A stretch of DNA of 64,000 nucleotides from Armatimonadota bacterium (GTDB lineage: Bacteria > Armatimonadota > Hebobacteria > CAIYQO01): assembly GCA_029553475.1 (NCBI GenBank), contig JAKPKV010000009.1, positions 1 through 64,000 on the forward strand, given 5' to 3'. A program made the translations under genes and the position numbers. Each line of letters opens with the position of its first letter. The stretch's first letter is position 1. The notes below the pieces were generated by a model. It worked only from the letters and a program-made list of their open reading frames with translations, did not search any database and was not told the DNA's origin. Positions 25,156-51,013 of the stretch are shown here, piece by piece.

Positions 25156-25184
25156 TTGACAAACAAACGTTTTTGTGCTATGCT
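25156..25184 (+). promoter_or_regulatory. Strong sigma70-like promoter of terminase locus
   Basis: TTGACA (25156-25161), 17 nt, TATGCT (25179-25184). Confidence 0.75.
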
Positions 25185-25251
25185 GTCCCTCCACTCGTGG
25201 ACCTGACCTCGCGCGTGCCGGAGGAGGGCGTGAAGGCGGAGGAGGGTGACG

Positions 25252-25998
25252 ATGCGAGAGCAGACGGATCGCCGGACGCTGGCGGCGCTGGCGCGGGAGG
25301 ACCTGGGGGCGTTCGCGACGCATGTTTTTGACTGCTGGCCGGCGGCGCACCACGAGCTGTGGGTGGAGCTGTTAACCGACCCGCGGCTGGAGCGCCTGCT
25401 CATCATCGCCCCGCCGGGGCACGCAAAATCCACCTGGTGCACCTGCATCTATCCGGCGTGGCGCATCGGGCGGGAGCCGGACATCAACATCCTGCTCGTC
25501 TCCGCCACCGCCGCGCAGGCGTATCTCTTCAGCCAGACGGTGCGCGAGACCCTGCGGGGGAACCCCGCCTACGCCGAGGTCTTCCCCGCGGTGACGCCCG
25601 ACCGCGCCCGCGGCTGGTCGCAGGCCGCCTGGTACGTCGCCCGCGCGGGCGCCGCCAACAAGGACGCCACCCTCGCCGCCTGCGGCGTGGGCGGCCCCAT
25701 CGTCGGCCGCCGCGCCGACCTCATCCTGGTGGATGATCCCTGCAACGAGCGCACCACCGCCACCAAGGCGATGCGCGACAAGCTCTGGCGCTGGTTTCGC
25801 CAGACGCTGCTCACCCGCCTGCGCCCCGGCGGTCGCGTCATCGTCATCATGACCCGCTGGGGTCAGGACGATCTCGCCGCCAAACTCATCGAATCCGGCG
25901 ATTTTGCCGTCTGCCGCCTGCGCGCGCTGAGCGAGGGGCCGGAGGTGGCAGCGGAGCTGACGCTGCCGCGCGAGCACGACGAGGAGGAGGCCGAATGA
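25252..25998 (+). CDS. Phage terminase large subunit, ATPase domain
   Basis: LLIIAPPGHAKSTWCTCIYPAWRIG (Walker A), ADLILVDDPCN (Walker B), VIVIMTRWGQDDLAAKLI. ATG 25252 after ggaggagg; ORF track begins at the GTG at 25246. Confidence 0.9.
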   Translation: MREQTDRRTLAALAREDLGAFATHVFDCWPAAHHELWVELLTDPRLERLLIIAPPGHAKSTWCTCIYPAWRIGREPDINILLVSATAAQAYLFSQTVRETLRGNPAYAEVFPAVTPDRARGWSQAAWYVARAGAANKDATLAACGVGGPIVGRRADLILVDDPCNERTTATKAMRDKLWRWFRQTLLTRLRPGGRVIVIMTRWGQDDLAAKLIESGDFAVCRLRALSEGPEVAAELTLPREHDEEEAE

Positions 25999-26717
25999 CC
26001 CCAGCAGACACGCTCAACACCCTGCAGATTCCCCTGCATCGCCGCGGGCCGGCGCTCTGGCCGGAGGTGATGCCGGAACGCCTGCTGCGCAAGCTGTTGA
26101 AGCAGCTTGGCAGCCTGCTGTTTGCCGCCACTTACCAGGGAGAGCCGCCGGCGGAGGACGGCGCGATCTTCCAGGCGCGGTGGTTCGGCGAGTATGCCGC
26201 CCACCCGGCGCTGCGGGAGATCGGGCAGGCGTGGGACACCGCCATGAAGGACGGCGAGGAGCACGACTACTCCTGCGGCATGACCGCCGGCTGCGGGGCG
26301 GACGGCGGCATCTATCTGCTGGACTGTTGGCGGGGGCAGGTGGCGGCGCCGGAGCTGGCGCGCGCGCTGCAGGCGCAGGCCGCGCGCTGGCGGCCGCGCT
26401 GGGTGTTGGTGGAAGATACCGGCGCGGGCACCGGCTTGCTGCAGCAGTTGCGCCGCCAGCACGGCCTGCCGCTCATCGGGGTGAAGCCGAAAGGGAGCAA
26501 AATCGCCCGCGCGAAGGCGGTCTCGCCGCTGGTGGAGAGCGGCCGCGTGCTGCTGCCCGCCGCCGCCCCCTGGCGCGAGGCGTTCCTCGCCGAATGTCTC
26601 GCCTTCCCCGCCGGCGCGCACGACGACCAGGTGGACGCCCTCGTCTACCTGCTGGCCCGTTTTCAGGAGCATACGGCCCCGTACCAGCCGGCATCGGGCC
26701 GCCCGCCGGGGTGGTGA
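25995..26717 (+). CDS. Phage terminase large subunit, RNase H-like nuclease domain
   Basis: ATGA overlap with upstream ORF; LFAATYQGEPPAEDGAIFQARWF, AWDTAMKDGEEHDYSCGMTAG, VLVEDTGAGTGLLQQL, AHDDQVDALVYLLA. Confidence 0.9.
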   Translation: MTPADTLNTLQIPLHRRGPALWPEVMPERLLRKLLKQLGSLLFAATYQGEPPAEDGAIFQARWFGEYAAHPALREIGQAWDTAMKDGEEHDYSCGMTAGCGADGGIYLLDCWRGQVAAPELARALQAQAARWRPRWVLVEDTGAGTGLLQQLRRQHGLPLIGVKPKGSKIARAKAVSPLVESGRVLLPAAAPWREAFLAECLAFPAGAHDDQVDALVYLLARFQEHTAPYQPASGRPPGW

Positions 26718-26780
26718 GTCATCAGCATCCGTTGCGTGGCGCACGACTGACGGCCGGATGCGAGCTACGCACCACGTGTG

Positions 26781-26812
26781 GACGCGCCCCGCGGCATGCC
26801 GCGGGGCGCGTC
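26781..26812. terminator. 32-bp perfect palindrome, candidate terminator downstream of terminase unit
   Basis: GACGCGCCCCGCGGCATGCCGCGGGGCGCGTC; no T-run. Confidence 0.5.
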
Positions 26813-27228
26813 GCCACCGGGAAACATAAGGCTGGCTCTCTCCTCCACCCGACCCAGTGCGTCTATTCAATTATGTATGCAATTGTCAGCCCCACGGTGT
26901 GCGAGGAAGATGCTTCCCGTGGCATGGTCTGGGGATGCCACCCCCGGAGCGGTTCGGCCTGTTGCCCGGTCGTCCCTCTCCAGGCACTATGTTCCCCGTG
27001 CGATTCAATGATAAACATTCTTACCCGGTGTGAGGGGATTTTTTCACCCTGTCCGCACCGCCATGTCGCGTGATGCGCACAAACCCGCCGCGCGGCGGGG
27101 CCGCATCCCGATTTCATCGGGACGCATGTACTGGGGCCGCGGAGTTGCACTCCGCATGAGCGCCGGGGTTGGTGCGGAGCGCGCGCGCGGCAATTTTGCC
27201 CATAGTGTCCATGACCAGTCGTTAATGT

Positions 27229-27234
27229 TATAAT
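27229..27234 (+). promoter_or_regulatory. -10 box of lpxC promoter (leaderless arrangement)
   Basis: TATAAT followed by AGACCGGC then ATG at 27243; weak -35. Confidence 0.6.
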
Positions 27235-27242
27235 AGACCGGC

Positions 27243-28052
27243 ATGGCCTTACAGCAGACCCTGGCATCGGCATGCCGCGTTGACGGCATCGGCCTTCACA
27301 CGGGGGCGCCGGTCCGGGTGGAGGTGCGCCCGGCGCCCGCGTCGCGCGGGCGCGTTTTTCTATGCGCCGGCGGGGAGATTCCGGCGCTGGCCGACTACGT
27401 GGTGGAGACGCGCCGCTGCGTGACCCTGGGGCGCGGCGCAGCGCGCGTCAGCACGGTGGAGCACCTGCTGGCGGCGCTGGCGCTGGCCGGGGTGACGAAC
27501 GCGGAGATCGCCGTGGACGGTCCGGAGCTGCCGGCGCTGGATGGCGCGGCGCACCACTGGCTGCATGCGGTGCGCGCGGCAGGAATTTGCCCGCAGGACG
27601 GCGAAGTGGCCGAGTATACGGTGACGGAGCCCTGTTGGCTGGAGGACGGCGACAGCGCGCTGCTCTTGGCGCCCGCCGCGGCGCTGACGCTCTACGCCGT
27701 GCTGACCGTGCCCGACACGGCGGCGGCGAACATGACCGCCGGCGGCGTAGTGGCGGAGGTGGCGGAGGAGATCGCCCGCGCGCGCACCTTCGGGCTGGAG
27801 CGCGAAGTGGCGGCGCTGCGGGAAGCGGGGCTGGCGCGGGGCGGCTCGCTGGAGAACGCGGTGGTGCTCACCCGCGACGGCTATCTCAACGCGCGGGTGT
27901 GGCCGCAGGAGCCGGCCTGGCACAAAGTGCTGGACCTGCTGGGCGACCTGGCGCTGCTCGGCCGGCCGCTGCGCGGGATGGTGGTGGCGATTCGCGCCGG
28001 CCACCGGCAGCACGTGGCGCTGGCGCGCCGGCTGCGCGAGGCGACGGCGTGA
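27243..28052 (+). CDS. lpxC: UDP-3-O-acyl-N-acetylglucosamine deacetylase
   Basis: GIGLHTGAPVRV, STVEHLLAALALAGVTNAEIAVDGPELPALDGAAHHW, ARTFGLEREV. Confidence 0.95.
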   Translation: MALQQTLASACRVDGIGLHTGAPVRVEVRPAPASRGRVFLCAGGEIPALADYVVETRRCVTLGRGAARVSTVEHLLAALALAGVTNAEIAVDGPELPALDGAAHHWLHAVRAAGICPQDGEVAEYTVTEPCWLEDGDSALLLAPAAALTLYAVLTVPDTAAANMTAGGVVAEVAEEIARARTFGLEREVAALREAGLARGGSLENAVVLTRDGYLNARVWPQEPAWHKVLDLLGDLALLGRPLRGMVVAIRAGHRQHVALARRLREATA

Positions 28053-28528
28053 GCGACGCGATCACCATCACGACGTATGACCCGGCGACGGATTACGCCG
28101 CGGTGACCGACCTGTGGCGGCGCAGCGGGCTGGTGCTGTACCCGATTGACAGCGCCGCGCGGCTGGCGCGCGCCGCGGCGGCGAACGCCGGGCTCTTTCT
28201 GGTGGCGCGCGACGGCGCGCGCGTGGTCGGGGCGGTGCTGGGCACCACCGATGGCCGCGCGCTGTGGGTGCAGCACCTGGCGGTGGACGAGGCCTACCGC
28301 CGGCAGGGGCTGGCCGGCCGCCTGCTCGACATCCTGGAGGCGGAAGCGCGGGCGCGCGACCTGGGCGCCATGCTGCTGCTGGTGCTGGACGAGAACACCG
28401 GCGCCGTGCGATTTTATGAACGCCGCGGCTGGCTGACGGCGCCCGGCGTGCGCTTTATGGTCTATCCGCTACGCGAGGAAGCGGGCGGCGACGCGGCGGA
28501 CGCGCCGCGAGAAAGGGACGCATCATGA
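28049..28528 (+). CDS. GNAT family N-acetyltransferase
   Basis: GTGA overlap with lpxC; VQHLAVDEAYRRQGLAGRLLDILEAEARARDLGAMLLLVLDENTGAVRFYERRGW. Confidence 0.88.
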   Translation: MSDAITITTYDPATDYAAVTDLWRRSGLVLYPIDSAARLARAAAANAGLFLVARDGARVVGAVLGTTDGRALWVQHLAVDEAYRRQGLAGRLLDILEAEARARDLGAMLLLVLDENTGAVRFYERRGWLTAPGVRFMVYPLREEAGGDAADAPRERDAS

Positions 28529-29022
28529 CGACGACAGCCACCGAGACAAAGGAGGGATGCGTTTTGAACATCGGGCAGATCATGGCGACCATTCCCCACC
28601 GGTACCCCTTCCTGCTGGTGGATCGCATTCTGGAGCTGGAGCCGGGGGTGCGCGCGGTAGGCGTGAAGAACGTCACCATGAACGAGGACTTCTTCAACGG
28701 CCACTTCCCCGGGAATCCCATCATGCCCGGCGTGCTCATCGTGGAGCACGCGGCGCAGGTGGGCTGCGTGCTCCTGCTGACCTCCACGGCGAACAAGGGC
28801 AAGCTCGGCCTGTTCGCCAGCATCGAAGAGATGAAGTTCCGGCGCCAGGTCGTGCCGGGCGACCAACTCCGCACCGAGGTCACCATCCTCAAGGCCGGCA
28901 GCCGCGCCGGACGCGTGCGCGCGGTCTGCCGCGTGGAGGACCAGGTGGCGGCGGAAGGCGAATTCACCTTCGTGCTCGTCCCGGATCCCGCACAGGCCAC
29001 CGCGCCTGGAAAGGAGGGGTAA
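28525..29022 (+). CDS. fabZ: 3-hydroxyacyl-ACP dehydratase FabZ
   Basis: ATGA overlap; IPHRYPFLLVDRILELEPG, NEDFFNGHFPGNPIMPGVLIVEHAAQVG. Confidence 0.96.
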   Translation: MTTTATETKEGCVLNIGQIMATIPHRYPFLLVDRILELEPGVRAVGVKNVTMNEDFFNGHFPGNPIMPGVLIVEHAAQVGCVLLLTSTANKGKLGLFASIEEMKFRRQVVPGDQLRTEVTILKAGSRAGRVRAVCRVEDQVAAEGEFTFVLVPDPAQATAPGKEG

Positions 29023-29026
29023 CCCT

Positions 29027-29812
29027 GTGAAAATCCACCCCACCGCGGCCATTGACCCGAAGGCGGTCCTGGCGCCGGACGTGGAGATCGGACCGTTCTG
29101 CATGATCGGCGCGGGCGTCGCCATCGGCGCGCGCACCATCATCGGTCCGCACGTGCACATCACCGGCCAGACCACCATCGGCGACGAGTGCCGCATCTAC
29201 ACCGGGGCTGCCCTCGGTGAGCCGCCGCAGGACGTCAAGTATCGCGGCGAAACCTCGTACCTGCGGATCGGCAACCGGAATATCATCCGCGAATACGTCA
29301 CCATCCACCTGGCGGTGGGCGAGGGCAACGCCACGATCCTGGGCGATGACAACATGGTGATGGCCTACTGCCACGTCGGCCACAACTGCGTGCTGGGCAA
29401 CAACGTCTGCATGGCGAACTACACGGGCGTCAGCGGCTGCTGCCAGATTGACGACCGCGTCACGCTGGGCGGCATGGCCGGCATCCATCAGAACGTCCAC
29501 ATCGGCCGGCTGACGATGGTCGGCGGCTACAGCAAAGTCACCGGCGACGTGCCCCCGTTCACCATGGTGGACGGCCACCCCGCCCGCCCCTACGGCCTCA
29601 ACACCGTGGGCCTGCGGCGCGCCGGCTTCTCCACGGAGCTGCGGAACTACCTGAAACAGGCTTTCCGCATCCTGCTCCACGAACACCGCAACCTCAGCGA
29701 GGCGCTGGATATCGCCCGCGCGGAGCTGCCGCCCCTCCCGGAAGTCCAGGAGTTTTTGCAGTTCATCGAACGCTCACGGCTGAGCGGCCGACACCTGGAG
29801 ATGCGACATTAG
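29027..29812 (+). CDS. lpxA: Acyl-ACP--UDP-N-acetylglucosamine O-acyltransferase
   Basis: Hexapeptide repeats; IHPTAAIDPKAVLAPDVEIGPFCMIG, NIIREYVTIHLAV, MAYCHVGHNCVLGN. Confidence 0.96.
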   Translation: MKIHPTAAIDPKAVLAPDVEIGPFCMIGAGVAIGARTIIGPHVHITGQTTIGDECRIYTGAALGEPPQDVKYRGETSYLRIGNRNIIREYVTIHLAVGEGNATILGDDNMVMAYCHVGHNCVLGNNVCMANYTGVSGCCQIDDRVTLGGMAGIHQNVHIGRLTMVGGYSKVTGDVPPFTMVDGHPARPYGLNTVGLRRAGFSTELRNYLKQAFRILLHEHRNLSEALDIARAELPPLPEVQEFLQFIERSRLSGRHLEMRH

Positions 29813-29880
29813 CGCGCGCGGGCGCCGCGGATAAGGGAAACCCGGACACCTCGATCCATCTCGCGCCCATGACGCGCTCT

Positions 29881-29904
29881 GACGGCGGCCATCCGGCCGC
29901 CGTC
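29881..29904. terminator. Hairpin downstream of lpxA operon
   Basis: GACGGCGGCC-ATCC-GGCCGCCGTC perfect 10-bp stem. Confidence 0.5.
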
Positions 29905-29969
29905 CGCATTTGGTCCGGGCGGGAGCGTATGGCCGCTTCCGCCCCCGCTCCCGTTCCCGCTGGGGGCGG

Positions 29970-30425
29970 TCACCCCCCGCCGAGGACCACCCGCTCCCGC
30001 GTGCCGTCCGCGGCGCGCAGGATGATCTGCCCCCGCGAGAGCGGGAAGCCGCTCTCGCTGATGACCAGGGCGTCGCCGGGCAGGGTGGTGTGCTCCACCC
30101 GCGCGCCGTCCGGCAGCGGGGCGCTCAGCGCGGGCACCTCCTCCGGTCGGGCGCCGCCATCGTGCGCGCGCGGCACCCAGCGCACAGCATCTACCCGCCC
30201 GCTGGCGGGGGTGAAGACGAGGGTATACAGCGATCTCTCGGCGCGCGCCCGCTCGCGCGCGCGGGCGATGCGCGCCTCCAGCGCCTGCCGGGCGTCGCGC
30301 GCGCCGGGCTGGGTGACGGCGCGCAGGCCGGGCAGCCATAACGCCGCGCTCAGCGCGGCCACGCCCAGCAGATACCACAGCTCCGGTCGCACCCCCCATC
30401 CCCGGGGGCCGACGCGCACCATCAT
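29970..30425 (-). CDS. Hypothetical protein with one N-terminal TM segment
   Basis: MMVRVGPRGWGVRPELWYLLGVAALSAALWLPGL. Confidence 0.45.
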   Translation of the reverse strand: MMVRVGPRGWGVRPELWYLLGVAALSAALWLPGLRAVTQPGARDARQALEARIARARERARAERSLYTLVFTPASGRVDAVRWVPRAHDGGARPEEVPALSAPLPDGARVEHTTLPGDALVISESGFPLSRGQIILRAADGTRERVVLGGG

Positions 30426-30577
30426 GGCGACCTCCCTGTATCCTCCATCTCCGCCCCGCGTGCCGGCACGCGGCTGGTTCCGGCCCCTGCTCCGCGGGAC
30501 CAGCCGCGCAGATCAGCGCAACTGACCGGTCTCAGCATGACAGTTTTGCCGCACAGGCGGGGGCGGAAGGGCCAGCG

Positions 30578-30619
30578 CCGCGCGGGGCGTGTGCGGCGAA
30601 TCGCACACGCCCCGCGCGG
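30578..30619. terminator. 18-bp perfect hairpin downstream of the minus-strand exported-protein genes
   Basis: CCGCGCGGGGCGTGTGCG-GCGAAT-CGCACACGCCCCGCGCGG. Confidence 0.55.
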
Positions 30620-30637
30620 GAGACGGTGATGGGCAGC

Positions 30638-31531
30638 CTACTGCGTCTTGCCCAGCGTGAAGATGATCGGGAGATTGGTCAGCAGGCTCTGATATTTGTG
30701 CTCGTTGAGCACCAGGAAGACGTCATCCAGGTTCACCGCCGGGTAGCAGCCCTGGCCCACGCCGACGGCCTCCAGGATGAGCGGGCGGTCGCCGGCCAGC
30801 TTGCCGGCGATGGCGGCCTCCAGGTTCGCGGCGTAGCGCACCGGGCCGTTGACCACCGCCACCGGGGTCATCGGCTGCGGCAGCGCCGCGCCCCACAGCT
30901 CCTTGCCGTCGTAGCGCAGCACCCGCGGGAAGAGGCAGGGGGTGAGCACCATGGCGTCGGCGTTGATGATGACGCCGGTATACGGGCCGTCGAAGCGCTG
31001 CGGGGTGTGGCCGCGGGGAATCTGCGGCAGCAGCGTCAGCTCCGCCGGCTTCACCTCCACCGCCTTCGCGGTGGAGAGGCCCTTGGCCCCGAAGTAGGTG
31101 ACGCCCTGTTCGCCGTAGAGCGGCAGCACGCCGACCATCGCCACCACGCCGGCGGAGGTCTTCTCGTCAATGACGGTGAGATGGGCGAGCAGGCTGTCCA
31201 GCGCGCGCAGCGCCTGCGCGTCCTTGGCCAGGTCGCCCAATATGGCGTGGGCATCCACGCGCAGGGTGTACAGTACGCGGCGCGCCTCGCGGTTCATGAT
31301 GGTCATCGCCGTGGTGCGCGCCTGGCGGACGGACATCGCGCTCCGGTCGCGCACGTAGCCGACGCCAACGGCCTCCAGGTTGCCGGTGAGCCAGTTGATC
31401 TGGGCGCCGGAGCGGTCGGTGCGGATGGCGTACCCCGGGGCGGGCGCGGGCGCGGCCGTCTGGCTCCAGGCGAGCAGCCCGGCGAGGGCGCAGGCACAGC
31501 AGGCAAGCGTGCGCAGCAGCGTGCGGATCAT
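30638..31531 (-). CDS. Exported protein, LPP20-like (paralogue of next gene)
   Basis: Signal peptide MIRTLLRTLACCACALAGLLAWSQTAA; GPYTGVIINADAMVLTPCLFPRVLRYDGKELWGA. Start uncertain; ORF track start is 31549. Confidence 0.65.
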   Translation of the reverse strand: MIRTLLRTLACCACALAGLLAWSQTAAPAPAPGYAIRTDRSGAQINWLTGNLEAVGVGYVRDRSAMSVRQARTTAMTIMNREARRVLYTLRVDAHAILGDLAKDAQALRALDSLLAHLTVIDEKTSAGVVAMVGVLPLYGEQGVTYFGAKGLSTAKAVEVKPAELTLLPQIPRGHTPQRFDGPYTGVIINADAMVLTPCLFPRVLRYDGKELWGAALPQPMTPVAVVNGPVRYAANLEAAIAGKLAGDRPLILEAVGVGQGCYPAVNLDDVFLVLNEHKYQSLLTNLPIIFTLGKTQ

Positions 31532-31541
31532 GCGGATCTCC

Positions 31542-32456
31542 TCAATCAATCAGAATCATCAGCGACAGCGTGGCGAGGAAGGTCTCCGCCGCGTGTTCGT
31601 CCCGCAGCGCGGTGATATCCTCGGCGCGCAGCACCAGGTCGCCGCGCAGCGGTCCGGCGGTGCCCAGCGGGCGGATGAGCAGCGGCACATTGCCGGCGCG
31701 GCCGCTCAGCAGCGCGACTTTCAGATCGGGCGCGTAGGCTACCAGGCCTTTCTCCTTCACCAGCGCCAGGTTCACGCCGGTCACGCCCCACACTTCGGCG
31801 CCGTCCTGCCCGACCAGGCGGGGGATGAAGACGGGGGTATACCCCAGGCCGCGGCAGTCGAGCACTAGGCCGGAATACGGGCCGCTGGAGACCTGATGGA
31901 GCGGCGCGCGCGGGCGCAGCGTCATCTGCTGGGCGGTGTAGACGGGCCGCATCCCCTTGCCGTCCGGCCCCTGCAGCAGCGCCAGCATCCGCGCGGCCAC
32001 GTCGCTGGGCGAACCGGGACCGGTGAGCGGCAGCGCGGCGATGACGATGCAGGCGCGCGCGCCGGTGTCATAGCGCTCCACGACCGGGCGCACCGGCGCG
32101 CACAGCGCTTCCATGGAGACGGTGGGCAGCAGTGTCGTGGCGAGGGCGTCGCCCAGCGTGACGAAGCCGGTGAGCTTCATCGCGCCCAGGTAATCGGCCA
32201 GCCGCGCCCGCGCCGCCGCCAGGGCCGCCTGCCGCGCGACCGCCGGGGCGCGCGTGCCGGCCGCCGTGCTCGGCGCCCGGCCCTCCGCGGTGATGAACAG
32301 CACGCCCCGCGACCAGTCCGCGACGGGCTCCGCCGGGCCGGTGGGCGCCGAGAGCCCGTAGCGCGGCTCATATACCGTCACCTGCACGGCGGCGAACGCC
32401 GGCGCCAGCGCCAGGGCGAGCACGCACCACACGAGCACAGCCAGCATGTTCCGCAT
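31542..32456 (-). CDS. Exported protein, LPP20-like paralogue
   Basis: MRNMLAVLVWCVLALALAPAFAA signal peptide; GPYSGLVLDCRGLGYTPVFIPRLVGQDGAEVWGV. Confidence 0.65.
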   Translation of the reverse strand: MRNMLAVLVWCVLALALAPAFAAVQVTVYEPRYGLSAPTGPAEPVADWSRGVLFITAEGRAPSTAAGTRAPAVARQAALAAARARLADYLGAMKLTGFVTLGDALATTLLPTVSMEALCAPVRPVVERYDTGARACIVIAALPLTGPGSPSDVAARMLALLQGPDGKGMRPVYTAQQMTLRPRAPLHQVSSGPYSGLVLDCRGLGYTPVFIPRLVGQDGAEVWGVTGVNLALVKEKGLVAYAPDLKVALLSGRAGNVPLLIRPLGTAGPLRGDLVLRAEDITALRDEHAAETFLATLSLMILID

Positions 32457-32794
32457 GAGACGACCTCCGCCACGCACCCGGATCGCCGGTGGGGGGTGCC
32501 GTGCGTGGACTCCGCGCGCCAGCGCGTTAGCGCTATTTTACCATATATACCCACAAATTGCACAAAAGCCGCAGACGGGCCCGCCGAGGCGGCCCATGCG
32601 GGACGTGGGATACGCCCCGCCGCTGTTCAGCGCGCGGCGTCGTTTCCAGCCGACGCGGCCCGTTCCTTCTCTCCCCGCCCAATGCGCGCGGCGCACATCG
32701 GTGCGGCGCGGCGCGACCGGACGCGCCGCGCCGCCGGGTAGACTGTGCACGAGAGGGGCGCGACGACTGAAGATGGGCGGTGATGTCCCGCAGC

Positions 32795-32829
32795 GCGCCC
32801 CCGCGCCGCGCTGCCCGGCGCGGGGGCGC
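32795..32829. terminator. 14-bp perfect hairpin downstream of SIMPL gene
   Basis: GCGCCCCCGCGCCG-cgctgcc-CGGCGCGGGGGCGC. Confidence 0.5.
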
Positions 32830-32838
32830 TGTTCGCCG

Positions 32839-33570
32839 TCACTGGATCAGATAGACCGCCGAGACCGTGGCGGTGACCGTCAGCGGGCCGGCGACGATGG
32901 GCACGCCGGGGGCGGCGGCGAGTTCGACGGCGCGGGCCTGCGCCATCAGCGGGCGGTACACGGGCGCGGTGGAGAGCGTCTGCAGCGCGCCGAGCTGCAC
33001 GCCGGCGGCCGCCGCCAGCGCCAGCGCGGTCTCGCGGGCGTTGCGCGTCGCGTCCGCGACGATCTCGCGCAGCGCGCGCTGTTCATCCTGCAGGTCGAAG
33101 GCCACCTGATCCACCCGGTTCGCGCCGGCCTGCAGCGCGGCGTCGAGCACGCGCCCGACGTTCGCCGCCAGCCGGTCCGCGTCGGCGTCGGGGAGGCGCG
33201 CCTGCACGCGGTTGATCACCCGGTAGCCGGTGATGCGCGGGGGCGTGGTCACCCCCGGCCGCTGCTGCTCGTAGACGGGCTGCACGTCAAAGGTGAGCGT
33301 GCGCACCGTCAGGTTAGGGAGATTGAGCGCCTGGATGGCGTCAATGATGCGCCGCGCGGCCGCAGTGTTCTGCGCCGCCGCCTCCGCCACCGTCCGCGCC
33401 TGCGTCTCGACGGCGACGGCGGCGAAGGCCAGATCGGGCGGCACCTGACGCTCGGCGGTGCCGGTCACAGAAATGGTCCGCGGCGGGGGCACGTGCATCA
33501 TCGTCTGCGCCGGCGCGCCGGCCGTCAGGCCGACGCACGCCAGCAGCAGCAGTATCACGCGTGAAAACAT
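32839..33570 (-). CDS. SIMPL domain (DUF541) secreted protein
   Basis: MFSRVILLLLACVGLTAGAPAQ; ISVTGTAERQVPPDLAFAAVAVETQARTVAEAAAQN; GYRVINRVQARL. Confidence 0.88.
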   Translation of the reverse strand: MFSRVILLLLACVGLTAGAPAQTMMHVPPPRTISVTGTAERQVPPDLAFAAVAVETQARTVAEAAAQNTAAARRIIDAIQALNLPNLTVRTLTFDVQPVYEQQRPGVTTPPRITGYRVINRVQARLPDADADRLAANVGRVLDAALQAGANRVDQVAFDLQDEQRALREIVADATRNARETALALAAAAGVQLGALQTLSTAPVYRPLMAQARAVELAAAPGVPIVAGPLTVTATVSAVYLIQ

Positions 33571-34507: not shown

Positions 34508-34515
34508 GATGGATT

Positions 34516-36101: not shown

Positions 36102-36103
36102 CT

Positions 36104-42525: not shown

Positions 42526-42956
42526 GGCACGCCCGCCGCGGCGGTGATGCGCTTTGCCACATTGCGCGCGCTGGTGGGGTGGGCATGGGTCGGCTGCCGT
42601 CCCCCGGATTGAAATCCGGGGCTGGAGCAACGAAGTCCACCTGCGTGGACTGGCCGGAGCGGGCCGACGGACCGGATGCCGGGCCACGCGGGAGGAAGGT
42701 GGCAACGCGCATGTATGCCGCCCACACTGGGACCGCGGAGTTGTACTCCGCAGAGGGCAGGCGTTCCCGGCGATATAGTTCGGGCGCGACAGACCATCAC
42801 CTCCACCCGGAGTCGTCCCGATGGCATCGGGATCGCCCGCCCGGCTGTCGGCTTCCGCCCGGGGAGAATCGTGGAAATCCCGCGACAAAAGCCGCACCAC
42901 CGCGGGGAAATGCGTTATAATACTACCAAATCCATCGCAGCCGGAAAGCAGCACCG

Positions 42957-43913
42957 ATGAGCACGATTCGCGTCGCCGTCCTGATGGGCGGCACGTCAAG
43001 TGAGCGGGAGGTCTCGCTGAAGAGTGGGCGCAATGTCGTCGCCGCCCTGGCGGGCGGGCGCTTCACCGTCATTCCCCTGGATTTCACCGGCGATCTCGCC
43101 CCAATCCTCGCCCTGAAGGGCCACGCGGATGTCGTGTTCCCCGCCCTGCACGGCCCCGGCGGCGAAGACGGCCGCATCCAGAGCGTCTTGGACCTGCTGG
43201 GCATCCCCTACGTCGGCTCCGGGCCGTTGAGCAGCGCCATGGCCATGCACAAGGGCGTCACCAAAATTCTCTACCGCGAGGCGGGCATTCCCACGCCGGC
43301 GGGCGTCACGCTATCGCGGCGGGACGGCGCGCCGGACTGGCTGGAGACGAATGTGGATGATCTGCTGAAGACGATAGGCGTCCCCTGCGTGGTGAAGCCG
43401 GCCAACGAGGGGTCGTCCTACGGCGTGAGCATCGTGAAGACGGCGGAGGAGCTGGCGGCGGCGCTGGCGCGGGCGGCGACGCTGGATCGTGACATCATTA
43501 TCGAGCAGTTCATCAGCGGCGTGGAGATCAGCGTGCCGGTGCTCGGTGACGCCGCGCCGCTGCCGGCGGTGGAGATCATCCCGAAGAGCGGCACCTACGA
43601 TTACGCGTCAAAATATACGCCGGGCGCGACGGAGGAGATCTGCCCGGCGCGCATCAGCCCGGCGGCGGCGGCGGCGGCGGCGGCGTACGCCGCCCGCGCC
43701 CACGCCGTCCTCGGCTGCCGCGACGTCTCGCGCACCGACATGATCGTCAGCGGCGACGCGGTGACCGTGCTGGAGACGAACACGCTGCCGGGGATGACCG
43801 ATACCAGCCTGCTGCCGCTCTCCGCGCGCGCGGCCGGCCTGTCTTTTGCCGCGCTGGTGGAGACGTTGGTGCGGGCGGCGCTGGCGCGGGCGACAGCCGC
43901 GCCCGGCGCATAG
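42957..43913 (+). CDS. ddl: D-alanine--D-alanine ligase
   Basis: VAVLMGGTSSEREVSLKSG, VFPALHGPGGEDGRIQSVLDLLGIPYVGSG, VVKPANEGSSYGVSIV, ETNTLPGMT; TATAAT 42916-42921. Confidence 0.96.
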   Translation: MSTIRVAVLMGGTSSEREVSLKSGRNVVAALAGGRFTVIPLDFTGDLAPILALKGHADVVFPALHGPGGEDGRIQSVLDLLGIPYVGSGPLSSAMAMHKGVTKILYREAGIPTPAGVTLSRRDGAPDWLETNVDDLLKTIGVPCVVKPANEGSSYGVSIVKTAEELAAALARAATLDRDIIIEQFISGVEISVPVLGDAAPLPAVEIIPKSGTYDYASKYTPGATEEICPARISPAAAAAAAAYAARAHAVLGCRDVSRTDMIVSGDAVTVLETNTLPGMTDTSLLPLSARAAGLSFAALVETLVRAALARATAAPGA

Positions 43914-43998
43914 CGGCGCCGGTTCGCGGGTACAGTACGGATAGCCCGGGGTGCGTGCGTCGGGCGAGATGGGGTTCGCCGGGAAAGTCGTCATCGTC

Positions 43999-44862
43999 AT
44001 GGATACACCGCTGCCGCCAATGAACCCGGAAGTCGCCAACGTGCGACGGCGCGCTTACGATCGCAAGTATCGCAAGTCGCTCCGTGCCGCGCGCCTGCTC
44101 TGGGGGCTGGTGGTGCTGCTGCTGCTGGCGCTGCTCATCGAAATTTTAGTCGCCACCTGCGCCTCGCCGCGCAACTGGGTCTACCGCATCGAGGTGCGCG
44201 GCGTGGAGACGCTGACGGCGCACGAGGTGATCCGGCTGATGGCGCTGCCGCCGCGCAGCAACTTCTTCCGCGCGCCGCTGCCCGCGCTGGCGGCGCGCCT
44301 CGCCGCGGAGCCGCGCGTGCGCGCGGCGCGGGTGACGCGCGGCGAGGTGGGCGTGCTGGTGGCGACGGTGCGCGAGCGGCAAGCGATCTGTCGGCTGGAT
44401 TACACCCGTCCGCCGGTCTACATGGACGCCGACGGCGTGCTCTTCACCCGGCCGACCGCGCCCGACCCGCCGGTGCCGGCGGTAGAAGGCTTGAAGCTGA
44501 ATTATGCCCGGCTGACGCTGGGACAGCCGCTGGCGACGGCGCCGGCCGCGCACGTGCGCGCGTGTCTGGCGGCGGTGAACAACCCCAATCTGGGGGCATC
44601 GCGCATCCGCCCGGCGCGCGTGCAGGTGACGCCGGACGGCAACTATACGCTGATCTTGCACACGGGGACGAAGGTCTTCCTGGGCAAGCCGGTGAATTTT
44701 GGGCTGAAAACGTTCACCCTGCAGCAGGGGATCGTGCAGGCGAGCGCCGACGGCTACGCGCTGGACGCGATTGCCTATTTTGACTTGCGCTACGTGGCGG
44801 ACTCAACGGGGAAAGGCGCGGCGATGATGCCGAAAGCGCCTGAAAAGGCTGGACACCAATGA
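43999..44862 (+). CDS. ftsQ: Cell division protein FtsQ/DivIB-like (POTRA)
   Basis: Single TM then VYRIEVRGVETLTAHEVIRLMALPPRSNFFR, LAAEPRVRAARVTR; follows ddl. Confidence 0.8.
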   Translation: MDTPLPPMNPEVANVRRRAYDRKYRKSLRAARLLWGLVVLLLLALLIEILVATCASPRNWVYRIEVRGVETLTAHEVIRLMALPPRSNFFRAPLPALAARLAAEPRVRAARVTRGEVGVLVATVRERQAICRLDYTRPPVYMDADGVLFTRPTAPDPPVPAVEGLKLNYARLTLGQPLATAPAAHVRACLAAVNNPNLGASRIRPARVQVTPDGNYTLILHTGTKVFLGKPVNFGLKTFTLQQGIVQASADGYALDAIAYFDLRYVADSTGKGAAMMPKAPEKAGHQ

Positions 44863-45632
44863 TGCGGATGCATGTGCCGCTGCCCAAGGCCCAACCGTGG
44901 ATGCTGCCGGTCACCATCGTGTGCCTGGCGTTGGGGATGCTCGTCGCCTTCATGCTGAAGGTCTCGGCGCCGAAGAAGTTCGACCCCACGACCATGACGC
45001 GCGATCAGTTGGTGGCGCTGTACGCGGACAAGGTGAGCGCGCACGAAGGGCTGCTCGCGGAATATGAAAAGCTGCGCGAGAAATATGACCGCATGGTGGA
45101 CAGCGCGACGACCGACCAGAAGCTGCGCGCCGAGCTGCAAAAGGCCATTGACGACCTGCGCGTGCGCGCCGGCTCCACGGCGGTCACCGGCCCCGGCATC
45201 GTCGCCATCATTGACGACACCAAGCTGGCGATGGAGAGCCCGGCGGATATCAACGCCAACCCGCTGCTCACGCACGACGTGGACCTGCTGCAGGTGGTGA
45301 ACGAGCTGCGCGCCGCCGGCGCCGAGGCGATCTCCATCAACGACCAGCGCGTGGCGGGCACCTCCGCCATTCGCTGCGTCGGCCCGGCCATTAAGATCAA
45401 CGATCACCCGGTCAGCGCCCCCTTCGTGGTGCGCGCCATCGGCAAGCCGGACGTGCTGTACGGCGCCATCAACATGCCGTTCGGCATCCTGGATCAACTG
45501 CGGCAGATGAGTACCCGGGTGGAGGTCTCCAAGCGCGAGAAGCTCGCCATTCCCGCCGTCGCCGTGCTGCCCTCCATCGAGGTGGGCAGGCCCGAGCTCA
45601 CGGCGCCCGCTTCGTCGAAAGGAGGGGAGTAA
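44859..45632 (+). CDS. DUF881 family protein (YlxW/YlxX-like)
   Basis: ATGA overlap; TGPGIVAIIDDTK, LLQVVNELRAAGAEAISINDQRVAGTSAIRCVGPAIKIND, VLYGAINMPFGILDQLR. Confidence 0.9.
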   Translation: MMRMHVPLPKAQPWMLPVTIVCLALGMLVAFMLKVSAPKKFDPTTMTRDQLVALYADKVSAHEGLLAEYEKLREKYDRMVDSATTDQKLRAELQKAIDDLRVRAGSTAVTGPGIVAIIDDTKLAMESPADINANPLLTHDVDLLQVVNELRAAGAEAISINDQRVAGTSAIRCVGPAIKINDHPVSAPFVVRAIGKPDVLYGAINMPFGILDQLRQMSTRVEVSKREKLAIPAVAVLPSIEVGRPELTAPASSKGGE

Positions 45633-45661
45633 CGCGGGGACCCCGCTGACTCCAACCGCTT

Positions 45662-46045
45662 ATGTGGCTGCCGATTCTCGCGCTGATCGTGGGATTCTGC
45701 GCGATCTACCTGCCCAATAAAATCACCTTGAGCGCCGAATACGCCCAGTACGTCGGCGTGGCCGTCGTCGCCGGCTTCGATTCCATCATCGGCGCCATCC
45801 GCTCGGTCATCGAGGGCAAGTTCAGCGACCGCATCTTCGTCAGCGGCTTTTTCATCAATGCCCTCGTCGCCGCGCTGCTCCTCTACCTGGGCACCGCGCT
45901 GAAAATCCAGTACGTCGCGCTGGCCATCACCGCCGCGCTGGTCATCCGCATCTTCAATAACCTGGGCTTCATCCGCCGCTACGTCGTCGCCCGCCTCTTC
46001 GAAAAACACCTCATCAGCGGGGAGAAGAGTTTTCCGGAGCCGTGA
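45662..46045 (+). CDS. sbp: Small basic protein (DUF1290/Sbp)
   Basis: LPNKITLSAEYAQYVGVAVVAGFDSIIGAIRSVIEGKFSDRIFVSGFFINALVAALLLYLG. Confidence 0.92.
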   Translation: MWLPILALIVGFCAIYLPNKITLSAEYAQYVGVAVVAGFDSIIGAIRSVIEGKFSDRIFVSGFFINALVAALLLYLGTALKIQYVALAITAALVIRIFNNLGFIRRYVVARLFEKHLISGEKSFPEP

Positions 46046-46057
46046 AGGGGGCGCCGA

Positions 46058-47068
46058 TTAGAACTCCTGCCCTTCCTGGTATTTGAAGCTCGGGTGGGCG
46101 TAGGCGTTGTTGGCGCCGCCGCCGGAGTTCAGGGTGCCCACCGCCGGGAAATTACTGGCATAGCGCGCGCCCACCACGGTGATGGCCGAGGTGGGGGTGA
46201 CCGCCGACGTATCATACCACTGATCACCGCCGTTGGTTTCCTGGGTCAGCATCGCGTAGCCGGTATTGGCCGCCAGGGTGACCGGGGCCGGCAGGGTCAC
46301 CCACTCATGCTGGTCATTCGTCGCCCCCGCGTCGCCCGCGGTGATGGAGACCGAGGTGATGAGCGCCTTGTCCGCGGCGCGCACGATGCCCAGGGTATGC
46401 GTGCCGCTGTTTCCCGTGATGTAGAGCCGACCCAGCGCGATCACGGTTAGCGGATCCGACCCGACGGTAAACTCGAAGCCCAGCGTGCCGCCATAGTTCG
46501 TGCGCTTGGTCGCCGTGGTGGTAAAGGAAGTCAGCACTGACTTCTCCACCATTCCCCACGCCGGCGGCGTGATGCCGATCTCCGTCGGTTTCTTCACATC
46601 CACGTGGCCGTCCACGTAGCTCACCACCACGCGGGTGGAGTGGCGCGCGACGAAGCCCGCTTTTGTATAGATGACGTTGGGGCTGATCTCGTCATGCACG
46701 AACGTGCTGGACTTGCCATCGGCGGTGAGGAAGGTCGCCGTGGGGTCGGTGATATCGCCCAGCGTCATGCCGGACACGTTGTAGTTATACCCGTAGGCGT
46801 TGGCGACGTTTTTCCCGGCGGTGGGGCACTGGGTGATCTTGCCGGTCAGCCCCAGGCTGCTCCACACCGTTTGCCGGTTGGGCAGGTATTCCTCGTGATC
46901 CTGCGCGAACATCTGCAGCTCGATGGCGAGCTGCCGCTGGTTGCTCAGGCAGGTGTTCTGGCGCGCTTTTTCGCGCGCTTTCGCAAACACCGGGAAGAGG
47001 ATGGCGGCCAGGATGGCGATGATCGCGATGACGACCAGCAGCTCAATGAGGGTAAAACCGCGACGCAT
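46058..47068 (-). CDS. Prepilin-type H-X9-DG protein
   Basis: [37 protein letters not shown] after [23 protein letters not shown]. Confidence 0.9.
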
Positions 47069-47169
47069 GGGGACTCCTTTCATCGAGAAAAATATTTCTG
47101 ATAGTACCGTGCACCCACTCGTCTGTCAATGTCGCTGGTGGGAGGCCGGGAGAACGGCCTCCCACCATG

Positions 47170-48228
47170 TCACCGCCCCTGCTTCAGCCGCTTGATGGCC
47201 TTGCCGAGCGCCTTCTCCCGGCGCTTGCGGGCGCGGTATTCGGCGTCGTCCTCGCGCGAGGCGAGGAAGGCCAGCTCGCGCCGCAGCTTCTGAAAACTGG
47301 CCCAGCGGCGGGGCGTGATGCGGCCATCCGCCAGCGCCGCCGCCAGCGCGCAGCCGTCCTCGCCGGCGTGGCGGCAGTCGGCGTAGCGGCACCGCGCCGC
47401 CAGCGCCTCGATGTCGGCGAAGGTGTCCGCCACCCCCTCGTCGGCCTCCCAGAGCTGCAGCTCGCGCATGCCCGGCGTGTCCAGCATCAGCGCGCCGGAG
47501 GGCAGCCGGAAGAGCTGGCGATGGGTGGTGGCGTGCCGGCCTTTGCTGTCGCCGGCGCGCACCTCCCGCGTCCGCTGGATCTCTTCCCCCAGCAGCGCGT
47601 TGAGCAGCGTGGATTTGCCCACCCCGGAGGAGCCGAGCAGCGCCGCCGTCTCACCGGGGGCGAGGCAGGCTTGCACCGCGGCCAATCCCACGGCCAGCGG
47701 CGCGCTGATGGCGTGGACCGGCGTCCGTCCGGCGACGGCCCGCGCCGCCGCCAGCCGGTCGGCGGTCTCCGGGCACAGGTCCGCTTTCGTCAGCAGCACC
47801 ACCGGCCGCGCCCCGCTCTCGCCCGCCGCCGCCAGGTAGCGCTCGATGCGCGCCAGGCTGAAGTTGCCGTCCAGCCCCACCAGCAGCAGCACGGTATCCA
47901 CGTTCGCCGAGATCACCTGCGGCTCCAGGCGGATGCCCGGCGCCTTGCGGATGAACTGGCCGCGGCGCGGCAGCACGGCGTGAATCGTCGCCGCGCTCCC
48001 CGCGTGCCGGCGCAGGGCGACCCAGTCGCCCACCACCGGCAGATCCAGCTTCGCGGCCGCCTCGTGCAGCAGTTTGCCGGTCACCACGCCGGCCACCTCG
48101 CCCGCCGCCGTCGCGAGGAGGTAGTGTGTCCGATGGTGCTGGGTCACGCGGCCCGGCTCGGCGTCCGCCGCATACGGCGCGAACGCCGCCGCCCACCGCG
48201 CGTCCCATCCATATTCGTCCAAGGTCAT
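47170..48228 (-). CDS. rsgA: Ribosome small subunit-dependent GTPase A
   Basis: VDTVLLLVGLDGNFSLARIERYLAAA, ALLGSSGVGKSTLLNALLG, GRHATTHRQLFRLPSGALMLDTPGMRELQLW, CRYADCRHAGEDGCAL. Confidence 0.96.
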   Translation of the reverse strand: MTLDEYGWDARWAAAFAPYAADAEPGRVTQHHRTHYLLATAAGEVAGVVTGKLLHEAAAKLDLPVVGDWVALRRHAGSAATIHAVLPRRGQFIRKAPGIRLEPQVISANVDTVLLLVGLDGNFSLARIERYLAAAGESGARPVVLLTKADLCPETADRLAAARAVAGRTPVHAISAPLAVGLAAVQACLAPGETAALLGSSGVGKSTLLNALLGEEIQRTREVRAGDSKGRHATTHRQLFRLPSGALMLDTPGMRELQLWEADEGVADTFADIEALAARCRYADCRHAGEDGCALAAALADGRITPRRWASFQKLRRELAFLASREDDAEYRARKRREKALGKAIKRLKQGR

Positions 48229-48345
48229 CGCTGTGTTCCTGTCTCTTTCGTCAACGTGTCCGGCAGGCCGGACCAAACAATAACGCCGCGACGCGCCCAT
48301 GGCGCACTCGCGGCGGAACGACGGCGACGCACTGTCAGGGACAGC

Positions 48346-48405
48346 TTACCCACCACCTCCACGGAGACGCGCCACGGGCGTGTATGCCAGGACCACCGCG
48401 ACCAT
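48346..48405 (-). CDS. Candidate 19-aa leader peptide MVAVVLAYTPVARLRGGGG upstream of rsgA
   Basis: AAAGGAGGCGCAAC-ATG; downstream of TTGACA-17-TACAGT on minus strand (48467-48439). Confidence 0.4.
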   Translation of the reverse strand: MVAVVLAYTPVARLRGGGG

Positions 48406-48438
48406 GTTGCGCCTCCTTTCCGGATAGAATCTGTCGTT

Positions 48439-48467
48439 ACTGTAGCCCACGCGGGAGGGATTGTCAA
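48439..48467 (-). promoter_or_regulatory. Sigma70-like promoter for rsgA transcript
   Basis: Minus strand TTGACA (48467-48462), 17 nt, TACAGT (48444-48439). Confidence 0.65.
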
Positions 48468-48570
48468 GGCTGGATGGCGAATAATGTGACTATTGGTGCC
48501 GCCGGAAGACACCGCGCCGCGGAGCGGCGTGGCGCACGACCAACATGCGGTGCATTTTCGGAGGCTGACG

Positions 48571-49254
48571 ATGATCCTCTACATCCTCACCGAGATCCCG
48601 GACAGGGAAGCCGGCGGCAACAACTACGTACGCCTCGCGCTGCAGGCGGCGTCCGGCGATCTCTGCCTGGTGGCGCGCTACAACCAGGTGTCGCTGGCGC
48701 TGCTGGAGGAGCTGCGGCCGTGGGCGGTGTGCCACAGCGGCGGCGGCGCCTGCTACGACGAATACGACATCCTGCAGTGCGATGGCTACCGGGAGGCGGC
48801 GCTGGGGTGGTCCGGCCCGCAGATCGGCTTCTGCGGCGGACACCAGCTGCTCGCCGCGCTGCACGGCGGCACGCTCGGCCACATGGGCCCGCTGCGCGAG
48901 GACGACGCCGACCACAACCCGGATAAGTGGCCGGGCTACTACAAAGAATGGGGCATGTATCCCGTGCGCGTGCTGGCGCCGGACCCGCTCTTCGACGGGC
49001 TGGGCGAGGTCATCCGCGTGCCGGAGTACCACATGGACGAGGTGACGGCGCTGCCCGACGACTTCATCCTCCTCGCCAGCTCCGCGCGCTGCCGCGTGCA
49101 GGCGTACCGCCACCGCGACAAACCGCTGTACGGCACCCAGTTCCATCCCGAAAAGCTCGTGGAAGGCTATCCGGACGGCAAGCGGGTGCTGGACAACTTC
49201 TTCGCTATCGCCCGCGCCGAGCGGGCGGCGGGGCAGGAGTGTGGAAAAGTCTAA
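48571..49254 (+). CDS. Class I glutamine amidotransferase-like protein
   Basis: GFCGGHQLLAALHGGTLGHMG (GxCxGxQ nucleophile), GTQFHPEKLVEGYPDGKRVLDNFF. Confidence 0.88.
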   Translation: MILYILTEIPDREAGGNNYVRLALQAASGDLCLVARYNQVSLALLEELRPWAVCHSGGGACYDEYDILQCDGYREAALGWSGPQIGFCGGHQLLAALHGGTLGHMGPLREDDADHNPDKWPGYYKEWGMYPVRVLAPDPLFDGLGEVIRVPEYHMDEVTALPDDFILLASSARCRVQAYRHRDKPLYGTQFHPEKLVEGYPDGKRVLDNFFAIARAERAAGQECGKV

Positions 49255-49272
49255 AATATTTGTTTTCCCCTA

Positions 49273-49301
49273 TTGACAAACGCCTGTTCCTCTGTTATAG
49301 T
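49273..49301 (+). promoter_or_regulatory. Strong sigma70-like promoter of scaffold/capsid locus
   Basis: TTGACA (49273-49278), 17 nt, TATAGT (49296-49301). Confidence 0.75.
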
Positions 49302-49350
49302 GGCGCCTGACAGTGCAGGCAGGCGCGCGCTGAGGTGGGGAGAGCCATCA

Positions 49351-49396
49351 GGCGGGCGGCGGGCCGGAGTGACGCAACTCCGGCCCGCCGCCCGCC
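49351..49396 (+). terminator. Intrinsic terminator/attenuator-like hairpin in leader of scaffold gene
   Basis: Perfect 19-bp stem GGCGGGCGGCGGGCCGGAG / CTCCGGCCCGCCGCCCGCC, 8-nt loop, then ATTTTTGTT; 23 nt before ATG 49420. Confidence 0.75.
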
Positions 49397-49419
49397 ATTT
49401 TTGTTGACGGGAGGGCGAT

Positions 49420-49818
49420 ATGGAGCACGACGAGACGCGGGTGGGCGAGCTGGAGGCCGCGCTGCACGGCGCGGTGGCGGAGCGCGACGGACTAGCCGCG
49501 CGGGTGACCGAGCTGGAGGAGCAGGTGCGGACGGGGGACGCCCGCTGGCGGGCGAGCGCGCGCGACGGCGCGCTGGCGCTGGCGCTGCAGCAGGCGAGCT
49601 GCCGCGACGTGGAGGCGGCATTGCGCCTGCTGGATGCGGAGGGGGTGACGGTGGATGACGCCGGCGTCGTGCAGGGCGCGGCGGAGGCGGTGGCGGCGCT
49701 GAAAACGGCGCGCGGCTACCTCTTCACCCCGCGCGCGCTGGGCGCCGCGGCCAACCCGGGCGGCGGCGCGCCGGGCGACCCGGCGGCGGCGTTCGCGGAA
49801 TGGCTGCGGCGGGGATAG
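49420..49818 (+). CDS. Phage scaffold-like protein (coiled-coil N-terminus, GP20-type C-terminal pattern)
   Basis: VGELEAALHGAVAERDGLAARVTELEEQV; ALRLLDAEGVTVDDAGVVQGAAEAVAALKTARGYLF; next gene is capsid. Confidence 0.7.
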   Translation: MEHDETRVGELEAALHGAVAERDGLAARVTELEEQVRTGDARWRASARDGALALALQQASCRDVEAALRLLDAEGVTVDDAGVVQGAAEAVAALKTARGYLFTPRALGAAANPGGGAPGDPAAAFAEWLRRG

Positions 49819-49846
49819 CGCACCACGCCAGGGTTCGCGCATCCTT

Positions 49847-49908
49847 CGTACTCGTACTCGTGCTCGAAATCCGATACGTGCGGACAGGATGTCCGCGCTC
49901 CGATGGAC
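49847..49908. repeat. Intergenic repeat: (CGTACT/CGTGCT) hexamers plus GCGGACA-GGA-TGTCCGC palindrome
   Basis: Near-identical to 2901-2968. Confidence 0.85.
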
Positions 49909-50119
49909 ACTATTCGTACTCGAAACGGTTCTGCGGAAGCCGAGCGCTGTGGTACCGCGCGTCAGGCAGTCCGGGACGTGGCGATCCGACACGCGGTGAA
50001 GAAGCGAAGCCCGTATTCGACTACGAGTACGAGACGAGCGCTGACGCGCTGATGACGCGTAGGGGCCGGGGGAGCGGTGCACCCGGCATATCTCAACACA
50101 CGACCAAAAAGGAGGAACC

Positions 50120-51013
50120 ATGGGAACTGTACCGATGAAAGAGGGCCAGGCGGCCCAGGGCGGGGTGTTCGTGCCGGCGTCGGTGCGCCAGGCGATTCTG
50201 GGGCGGCTGGGCGTGAGCTCGGCCGTGCGGCGGCTGACGCAGCCCATCCCGATGACGGCGCTGACGCTGAAGCTGCCGCGCCTCACCGGCGGGGTGGCGG
50301 CGCAGTGGGTGGACGAAGCGGCGGACAGCGGCGTGGACGCGCCGACCTTCGACAGCGTGACGCTGACCGCGCGCAAGCTGGCGGTGCTGGTGCCGGTGAC
50401 GGAGGAGCTGCTGGCGGACGCCAACACCGGCATCGCCGAGGTGGTGGCGCAGATCCTCGCCGACAGCTTCGCGATGAAGGAGGATCGCGCCTTCCTCGGC
50501 TTCGACGACGGCGGGCCGATCACCGGCCTCTACCAGGAGGCGCTGGTGCCGAAGATCGCCTCCACCGCGGACATCGTGGCGGACACCGCCGCGGCGCTGG
50601 GGGCCATCGAGGCGGCGGGCTACGAGCCCACCGGCTTCGTGGCCAATCCGAAGGTGAAGGCGCTCTTGCGCGCGGCGAAGGACGGCAGCGGCCGTTATAT
50701 CTTCTCGCCGAGCGAGACCAGCGGCGCGCCGGACATGCTCTGGGGGCTGCCCATCGTCTTCTCGCGCCAGGTGCCGGTGACGCTGGGGGCGGGCACCAAT
50801 AAGACGGCGCTCTTCGCCGGCGACTGGCGGCAGTTCCTCATCGGCGACCGCCAGGACTTCACCCTCAGCCGCAGCACGGACGCCGCCTACGTGGTGGGCG
50901 CCGAAGTGCGCAGCGCCTTCCAGCGCCACGAAGTGCTGCTGCGCGCCGAGGAGCGCGTGGACGGGGTGATCGCCGACCCGACGGCGTTCGCGGTGGTGGA
51001 TCTGATCGCGTAA
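50120..51013 (+). CDS. HK97-fold phage major capsid protein
   Basis: LTLKLPRLTGGVAAQWVDEAADSGVDAPTFDSVTLTARKLAVLVPVTEELLADANTGIAEVVAQILADSFAMKEDRAFLGFDDGGPITGLYQ; aaggagg upstream of ATG. Confidence 0.92.
   Translation: MGTVPMKEGQAAQGGVFVPASVRQAILGRLGVSSAVRRLTQPIPMTALTLKLPRLTGGVAAQWVDEAADSGVDAPTFDSVTLTARKLAVLVPVTEELLADANTGIAEVVAQILADSFAMKEDRAFLGFDDGGPITGLYQEALVPKIASTADIVADTAAALGAIEAAGYEPTGFVANPKVKALLRAAKDGSGRYIFSPSETSGAPDMLWGLPIVFSRQVPVTLGAGTNKTALFAGDWRQFLIGDRQDFTLSRSTDAAYVVGAEVRSAFQRHEVLLRAEERVDGVIADPTAFAVVDLIA

Follow-up and report, generated by a model that had tools for sequence, protein, structure and literature searches.

Why do genes for the head of a tailed phage stand in small groups among the core genes of a bacterium? 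The question is raised by a 64,000-nucleotide stretch of DNA from a bacterium of the little-studied phylum Armatimonadota (the window; bases 1-64000 of the 90,449-bp contig JAKPKV010000009.1, here C151), in which a terminase locus and a scaffold-capsid locus are embedded among host genes. An earlier note on this DNA had suggested either a domesticated, dispersed gene transfer agent (GTA) or other capsid-based system, or the relics of several prophages. We find that the two loci have counterparts beyond the window, that the genes are dispersed and vertically inherited, and that those compared between species are under purifying selection. The likely explanation is a single former siphophage that has been domesticated and dispersed and is now GTA-like, and the first of the two earlier suggestions is supported by single-copy, syntenic and selected portal, connector and tail pieces.

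The analysis used the draft genome that contains the window (G000; 5.27 Mb in 194 contigs, completeness 99.5%, contamination 4.0%) and the sole congener compared, G090 (metagenome-assembled genome UR.bin144; 780 contigs, 78% complete), which differs from it by about 12% at the DNA level. Three other genomes of the class were included: G109, which is a family-level relative, G083 and G008.

The first piece encodes the large terminase in two open reading frames (ORFs) on the forward strand. The 250 aa of terA (25246..25998) match the ATPase domain at positions 256-477 of the TerL family phrog_38 (E = 3.6e-61), and the 240 aa of terB (25995..26717) match the RNase H-like nuclease domain at positions 482-711 (E = 4.3e-55; Terminase_6C, 2.1e-19), so that the pair of ATPase and nuclease ORFs described earlier at 25.2-26.7 kb is borne out by Pfam and PHROGs, coordinates included. 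The start of terB overlaps the stop of terA in an ATGA, and the same ATGA split occurs in G090, where the terminase pair is flanked by the same genes. When the pair is aligned with ten terminases of the phylum that are encoded in one ORF, the split falls in the linker between the two domains, and the Walker A (APPGHAKST) and Walker B (LILVDDP) motifs of terA and the acidic motifs WDTA, VEDTGAG and HDDQVDA of terB are intact. Each half has one match in its own genome. A split terminase is not by itself unprecedented, since PHROGs includes half-length terminase families. The promoter of this piece (TTGACA-17-TATGCT; 25156..25184, + strand) is identical to that in G090 at 29 of 29 bases (C555:10459-10487).

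The second piece, also on the forward strand and separated from the first by 22.7 kb of host genes, consists of a scaffold protein gene at 49420..49818 (Phage_scaffold PF06810, 8.9e-16) and an HK97-type major capsid gene at 50120..51013 (PF05065, 1.4e-55, 279 of 280 model positions). This is the pair that had been placed at 49.4-51.0 kb, and both Pfam and PHROGs agree with that assignment and its coordinates. The capsid is the only PF05065 match of the genome. Upstream lie a promoter (TTGACA-17-TATAGT; 49273..49301) that is kept in G090 (C276:324-352), a leader motif (49332..49355), and an intrinsic terminator with a 20-bp stem and a T-run (49351..49396) between the promoter and the scaffold gene, a hairpin that the earlier note does not mention. 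The scaffold promoter, the leader and the first 68 scaffold codons follow the same rsgA and amidotransferase genes in G090. The G090 contig ends there, inside the scaffold gene, so the capsid, which is absent from that assembly, is not comparable between the species. Directly after the capsid, at 51035-51240, a promoter-like TTGACA..TATAAC and a strong hairpin are followed by an ORF starting MRAVAYIDGFNRY that resembles a truncated NYN-domain gene.

The earlier note had recognised no portal or tail gene in the window, which was right; both exist beyond it. A third piece at C151 78403-85887, 14 kb past the end of the window and 27.4 kb of host genes after the second, lies on the same strand as the other two. 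Behind a promoter at 78266, it contains the head-tail adaptor Ad1 (78403-78885; phrog_477, 1.4e-23, and PF20557), a connector (78887-79198; phrog_3881), a connector or tail terminator (79266-79682; phrog_2595, with PF12691 slightly below the cut-off), a tail protein with an immunoglobulin-like (Ig)/TIG domain that corresponds to the major tail protein (79769-80554; phrog_2175), a tail-chaperone-like ORF (80551-80820) and a tape-measure-like ORF of 189 aa (81141-81710), identified through its alignment with a relative that itself has a match to a tape-measure family. A 120-aa ORF then precedes the tail hub (82147-83484; phrog_1887), and a 515-aa spike with a LamG lectin domain (83571-85118) is followed by two short ORFs (73 and 56 aa), of which the latter has a weak holin match. 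An AlphaFold2 model of the 445-aa tail protein had a pLDDT of 42 and was not used. In G090, the connector and tail genes adjoin the same neighbour, and the contig ends inside the tail-protein gene.

The type of the capsid and scaffold suggested an SPP1-type portal, and a search of the genome for SPP1_portal returned exactly one gene, a lone 438-aa ORF on a second contig (C182:18706-20022) with an ABC transporter gene on one side and folC on the other. The portal gene of G090 has the same two neighbours. The portal on C182 shares 31% identity over 96% of its length with annotated portals of Paenibacillus phages, and no HK97-type portal (PF04860) was found in G000 or G090 by profile search. The profile searches thus confirmed the terminase, scaffold and capsid families and located the portal, connectors and tail outside the window. 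When 166 phage-region proteins were compared by BLASTP with 1.34 Mb of the genome's own sequence, no further head, portal or tail gene other than the portal was found. A simple repeat (CTCGTACTCGTGCTCG / GAGTACGAGCACGAG) occupies 49838-50040, between the scaffold and capsid genes, and C182 18290-18420, upstream of the portal.

The phage genes are thus arranged in at least four transcription units, namely terA-terB, scaffold-capsid, connector-tail (78.4-85.9 kb) and portal (C182). The best described phage relatives of the portal, Paenibacillus phage Tripp and its relatives (Halcyonevirus), have the same gene set and order; in Tripp, TerL, portal, minor head protein, scaffold, capsid, Ig-domain protein, tape measure and holin form a contiguous series, and the three pieces on C151 retain the order of such contiguous phages. 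Tripp differs in its contiguous 54-kb genome, its tape measure of about 960 aa and its endolysin, whereas the genes here are dispersed, the tape-measure-like ORF has 189 aa and no endolysin was found. IMG/VR held no close relatives of the terminase or portal and one 27% relative of the capsid. Judged from these families, the ancestor would have had an SPP1-type portal, a scaffold-type HK97 head and a short tail. The loci do not resemble an active prophage: they are dispersed with housekeeping genes between them and carry no integration or replication genes.

Genes that occur singly or a few at a time between core genes might also have been captured separately and recruited for unrelated functions, for instance to form an encapsulin-like shell in the case of the capsid or to act as a nuclease in that of the terminase, and HK97-fold proteins that act as compartments are known (PMC8346489). 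Such a history is improbable here, because the genes, with portal, connectors and tail among them, match one another as a set from one phage type without redundancy, and because two of the pieces share an exclusive leader. The capsid fits PF05065 and the same genome contains matched single-copy portal, terminase, scaffold, connector and tail genes, which is not the setting of an encapsulin.

Both genomes are fragmented drafts (194 and 780 contigs), and phage contigs might have been wrongly joined to, or binned with, those of a bacterium. This explanation is hardly credible. The four loci have the same flanking host genes in the two species, and since the junctions recur in assemblies made separately from genomes that differ by about 12% at the DNA level, misassembly is excluded. 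The phage genes are also as GC-rich as their neighbours, as had been noted, with a GC content of 70-79% and a GC content at third codon positions (GC3) of 0.87-0.95 that match the neighbours' values.

To quantify selection, we estimated the ratio of non-synonymous to synonymous substitution frequencies (dN/dS) for G000 and G090 with NG86, with pooled values given bootstrap 95% intervals. The comparison took in eight genes; capsid, hub, spike and tape measure are outside it, since the G090 contigs stop before them. The dN/dS ratios were 0.15 for terA, 0.17 for terB, 0.24 for both the scaffold part (68 codons) and Ad1, 0.28 and 0.17 for the two connectors, 0.17 for the tail protein and 0.11 for the portal, as compared to 0.13-0.26 for neighbouring host genes. 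The pooled ratio was 0.165 for the phage genes (0.139-0.201, 1591 codons) versus 0.177 for the host neighbours (0.154-0.200, 2584 codons), and the compared phage genes contained no stops, gaps or indels. The dS values ranged from 0.27 to 0.48 for phage genes versus 0.18 to 0.58 for host genes. At the sequence level, purifying selection on the compared phage genes is as strong as on host genes, and the genes are vertically inherited since the split of the two species, as far as a single species pair, which is a weak test, can tell.

These values bear directly on the earlier alternative that the loci are relics of several prophages. Decay is expected to shift dN/dS towards 1. Functionless, decaying remnants of one or more prophages might be suspected from the lack of an integrase, a replication gene or a complete lysis cassette at the loci, from the terminase in two ORFs and from the intergenic repeats between scaffold and capsid. 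Yet the ratios equal those of host genes in the absence of stops and indels, which contradicts decay for the eight comparable genes, and the terminase split is conserved with its catalytic motifs intact while a terminator hairpin has been kept by compensatory changes, making relics very improbable. The synteny and dN/dS comparison that the earlier note had proposed thus places the loci at the same sites in G090 with no sign of decay, and neither unconfirmed families, decay or absence in relatives, nor misassembly, which it had named as contrary outcomes, was observed for the genes compared.

The upstream regions hint at common control. As predicted earlier, each locus in the window has its own promoter with a 17-nt spacer, at 25156-25184 and 49273-49301, and the promoters of pieces 1-3 all start with TTGACAAAC. 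The pattern TTGACAAAC-N14-TATRNT occurs four times in the genome against 0.008 expected from base composition, with three of the four sites before phage genes. In pieces 2 and 3, the promoter is followed by the leader motif GAGGTGG-N-CAYCAGGCGG, then by a strong intrinsic terminator and then by the gene. The leader pattern has two sites in G000 and two in G090, all at the scaffold and tail loci, and none in G109, G083 or G008. The reversed pattern, used as a control, matched twice in the own genome, where the true pattern had no match elsewhere, so the background is not zero. In the 20-pair stem of the scaffold leader, five pairs differ from G090 by double compensatory changes; a single change is tolerated at one pair, and one pair is broken. 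In the lambda late operon, an antiterminator opens a layout of promoter, leader, terminator and structural gene. The layout seen here recalls that operon, and the analogy would suggest a similar kind of control.

The three promoters on C151 carry [AG]AACN4GTT[CT] in the spacer, and we do not claim control by LexA or the SOS response: among the 28 sites that the motif has in 1.66 Mb of the genome, no site was seen upstream of a recognisable SOS gene, and neither recA nor lexA was recognised in the sampled sequence, leaving nothing to compare the spacer motif with. In G090, a repeat family of more than 15 copies (for example L079, L081, L083, L085, L095, L103 and L105) lies before unrelated genes and consists of a promoter TTGACAAAC..CGTT..TGTGCTATACT, a leader GTACCGTGACAAC and a long inverted repeat (such as GTATCACCCCGCA...TGCGGGGTGATAC). 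Decayed copies occur in the own genome, and the family could be a mobile promoter or a small-RNA repeat. Promoters of a second family, with the form TTGACAAAAGAGGCCCATAGCCGTATAGT, are found at about 10 places in the own genome (C36:19654, C43:1617, C83:6028, C109:207, C109:12796, C152:27844, C157:52537, C163:19070, C186:141 and C186:192011), possibly a regulon or a repeat.

We compared the system with the six criteria for GTAs of PMC9662315. Homology to caudoviricete proteins is seen in the terminase, portal, scaffold, capsid, adaptor, connectors and tail. Full endogenization, often at multiple loci, is represented by four loci with the same host flanks in two species, and vertical inheritance and co-diversification are observed on the single species pair. 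A GTA genome does not fit whole into one particle; here the pieces span more than 60 kb of C151 plus a second contig, so that no single short fragment holds them all, and whether a particle could would depend on the capacity of the head. The packaging of mostly random host DNA and its delivery to other cells are predictions for this system, and we therefore use GTA-like rather than GTA.

The proposed workings would be those of a GTA. The units would be expressed together from sigma-70-type promoters, with the leader terminator gating transcription of pieces 2 and 3 by attenuation or antitermination. The proteins may then assemble into a small, short-tailed particle, whose head the terminase, having no linked phage replication or integration genes, would fill with fragments of the host chromosome. 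Release would depend on the holin-like proteins and an unlinked lysin.

The strongest rival, though an unlikely one, is a domesticated, DNA-filled particle of the PBSX kind, kept for killing competitors rather than for gene delivery. The evidence for domestication and selection fits it equally, the lectin-like LamG spike could help to target either kind of particle, and the two would look alike in sequence. The genes of PBSX form a single contiguous cluster. Dispersal has been described for GTAs (PMC9662315, PMC11841831). Nothing decisive speaks against such a particle.

Several observations weigh against a GTA-like system. Neither an endolysin nor a small terminase or minor head protein was found in the protein-level census of phage genes, which covered part of the genome. 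Only one other species, G090, carries the system, and G109 gave no match to the terminase, the capsid or the tail hub. Phage genes are also missing from the lpxC and rsgA regions of G109, which were considered as clean empty sites, a view we rejected because the neighbours there differ too. The capsid and the distal tail fall in assembly gaps of G090, outside the species comparison. The promoter type is not exclusive, and with about 20 such promoters in G090, mostly of the repeat family before ordinary genes, the promoter alone is not specific. The portal promoter differs (TTGACA-17-TATATA in the own genome, TATAAT in G090) and is without the leader motif. Finally, the system is known from its genes, and particles, packaging and transfer are predictions.

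The GTA-like reading can be set beside systems in which dispersal is established. RcGTA (Rhodogtaviriformidae) is encoded at five loci and BhGTA (Brachyspira) has terL outside the main cluster (PMC9662315), and some GTA loci hold only one or two genes (PMC11841831). The likeness lies in caudoviricete-derived head and tail genes that are fixed in the host and vertically inherited at several loci. However, in RcGTA and BhGTA a main head-tail cluster persists (16.3 kb in BhGTA), whereas here the terminase, portal and scaffold-capsid genes are each apart; moreover, phylum and phage ancestor are different, and for the present system transfer is a prediction from genes. Dispersal as such is known for GTAs; the split of the core head module sets the present case apart. 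In the bracoviruses of parasitoid wasps (Polydnaviriformidae), structural genes are partly dispersed in host chromosomes, co-expressed and under selection (PMC7822920). The likeness is one of architecture and an analogy only, since the host is a eukaryote, the ancestor a nudivirus and there is no homology. A search of full-text literature returned no account of a GTA in Armatimonadota; the sole paper that mentions both is a spring metagenome study. We lean towards a new GTA lineage in this phylum, a parallel in bacteria to the dispersed architecture of bracoviruses. In it the core head-tail module, and not just accessory genes, would be split into at least four host-embedded transcription units, the terminase being divided as well, and a conserved leader terminator would gate expression.

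Few GTAs have been proven, most of them in Alphaproteobacteria and Brachyspira, and the usual screens seek a compact head-tail cluster. A system with terminase, portal, capsid and tail apart would escape both prophage finders and such screens, and elements of this kind may therefore be commoner than thought. The case illustrates how far a phage can be dismantled and still be retained by selection. It also suggests how to search for such systems, namely by looking for phage structural genes that are conserved, present in one copy and placed between core genes, and whose dN/dS resembles that of the core.

A phage-like cluster in G008, of the same class, has a homologous Ig-domain tail protein, a tape-measure-like protein (292 aa) and a tail hub, but its portal is of the HK97 type (PF04860), its capsid is extended at the N terminus, and it includes genes for methyltransferase and glycosyltransferase. 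It is divided between C33 31518-33492, at a contig end, and C129 (L119), apparently as one cluster, and is perhaps a second GTA-like element. On C151, Rfam identified only two tRNAs over the whole contig. An intergenic inverted repeat around GGAATGTCCCGCCGTGGCATTCCC at 51329-51450 has dozens of copies in G090, and at 4743-14711 one ORF, host-like in its codon usage, encodes a giant protein of 3322 aa without an assigned role. From 60836 to the end of the window at 64000 and on to C151 65322, about 4.5 kb are low in GC (down to 31-50%, as compared to 67% for the contig) and unlike in codon usage, and this stretch is probably a recent acquisition.

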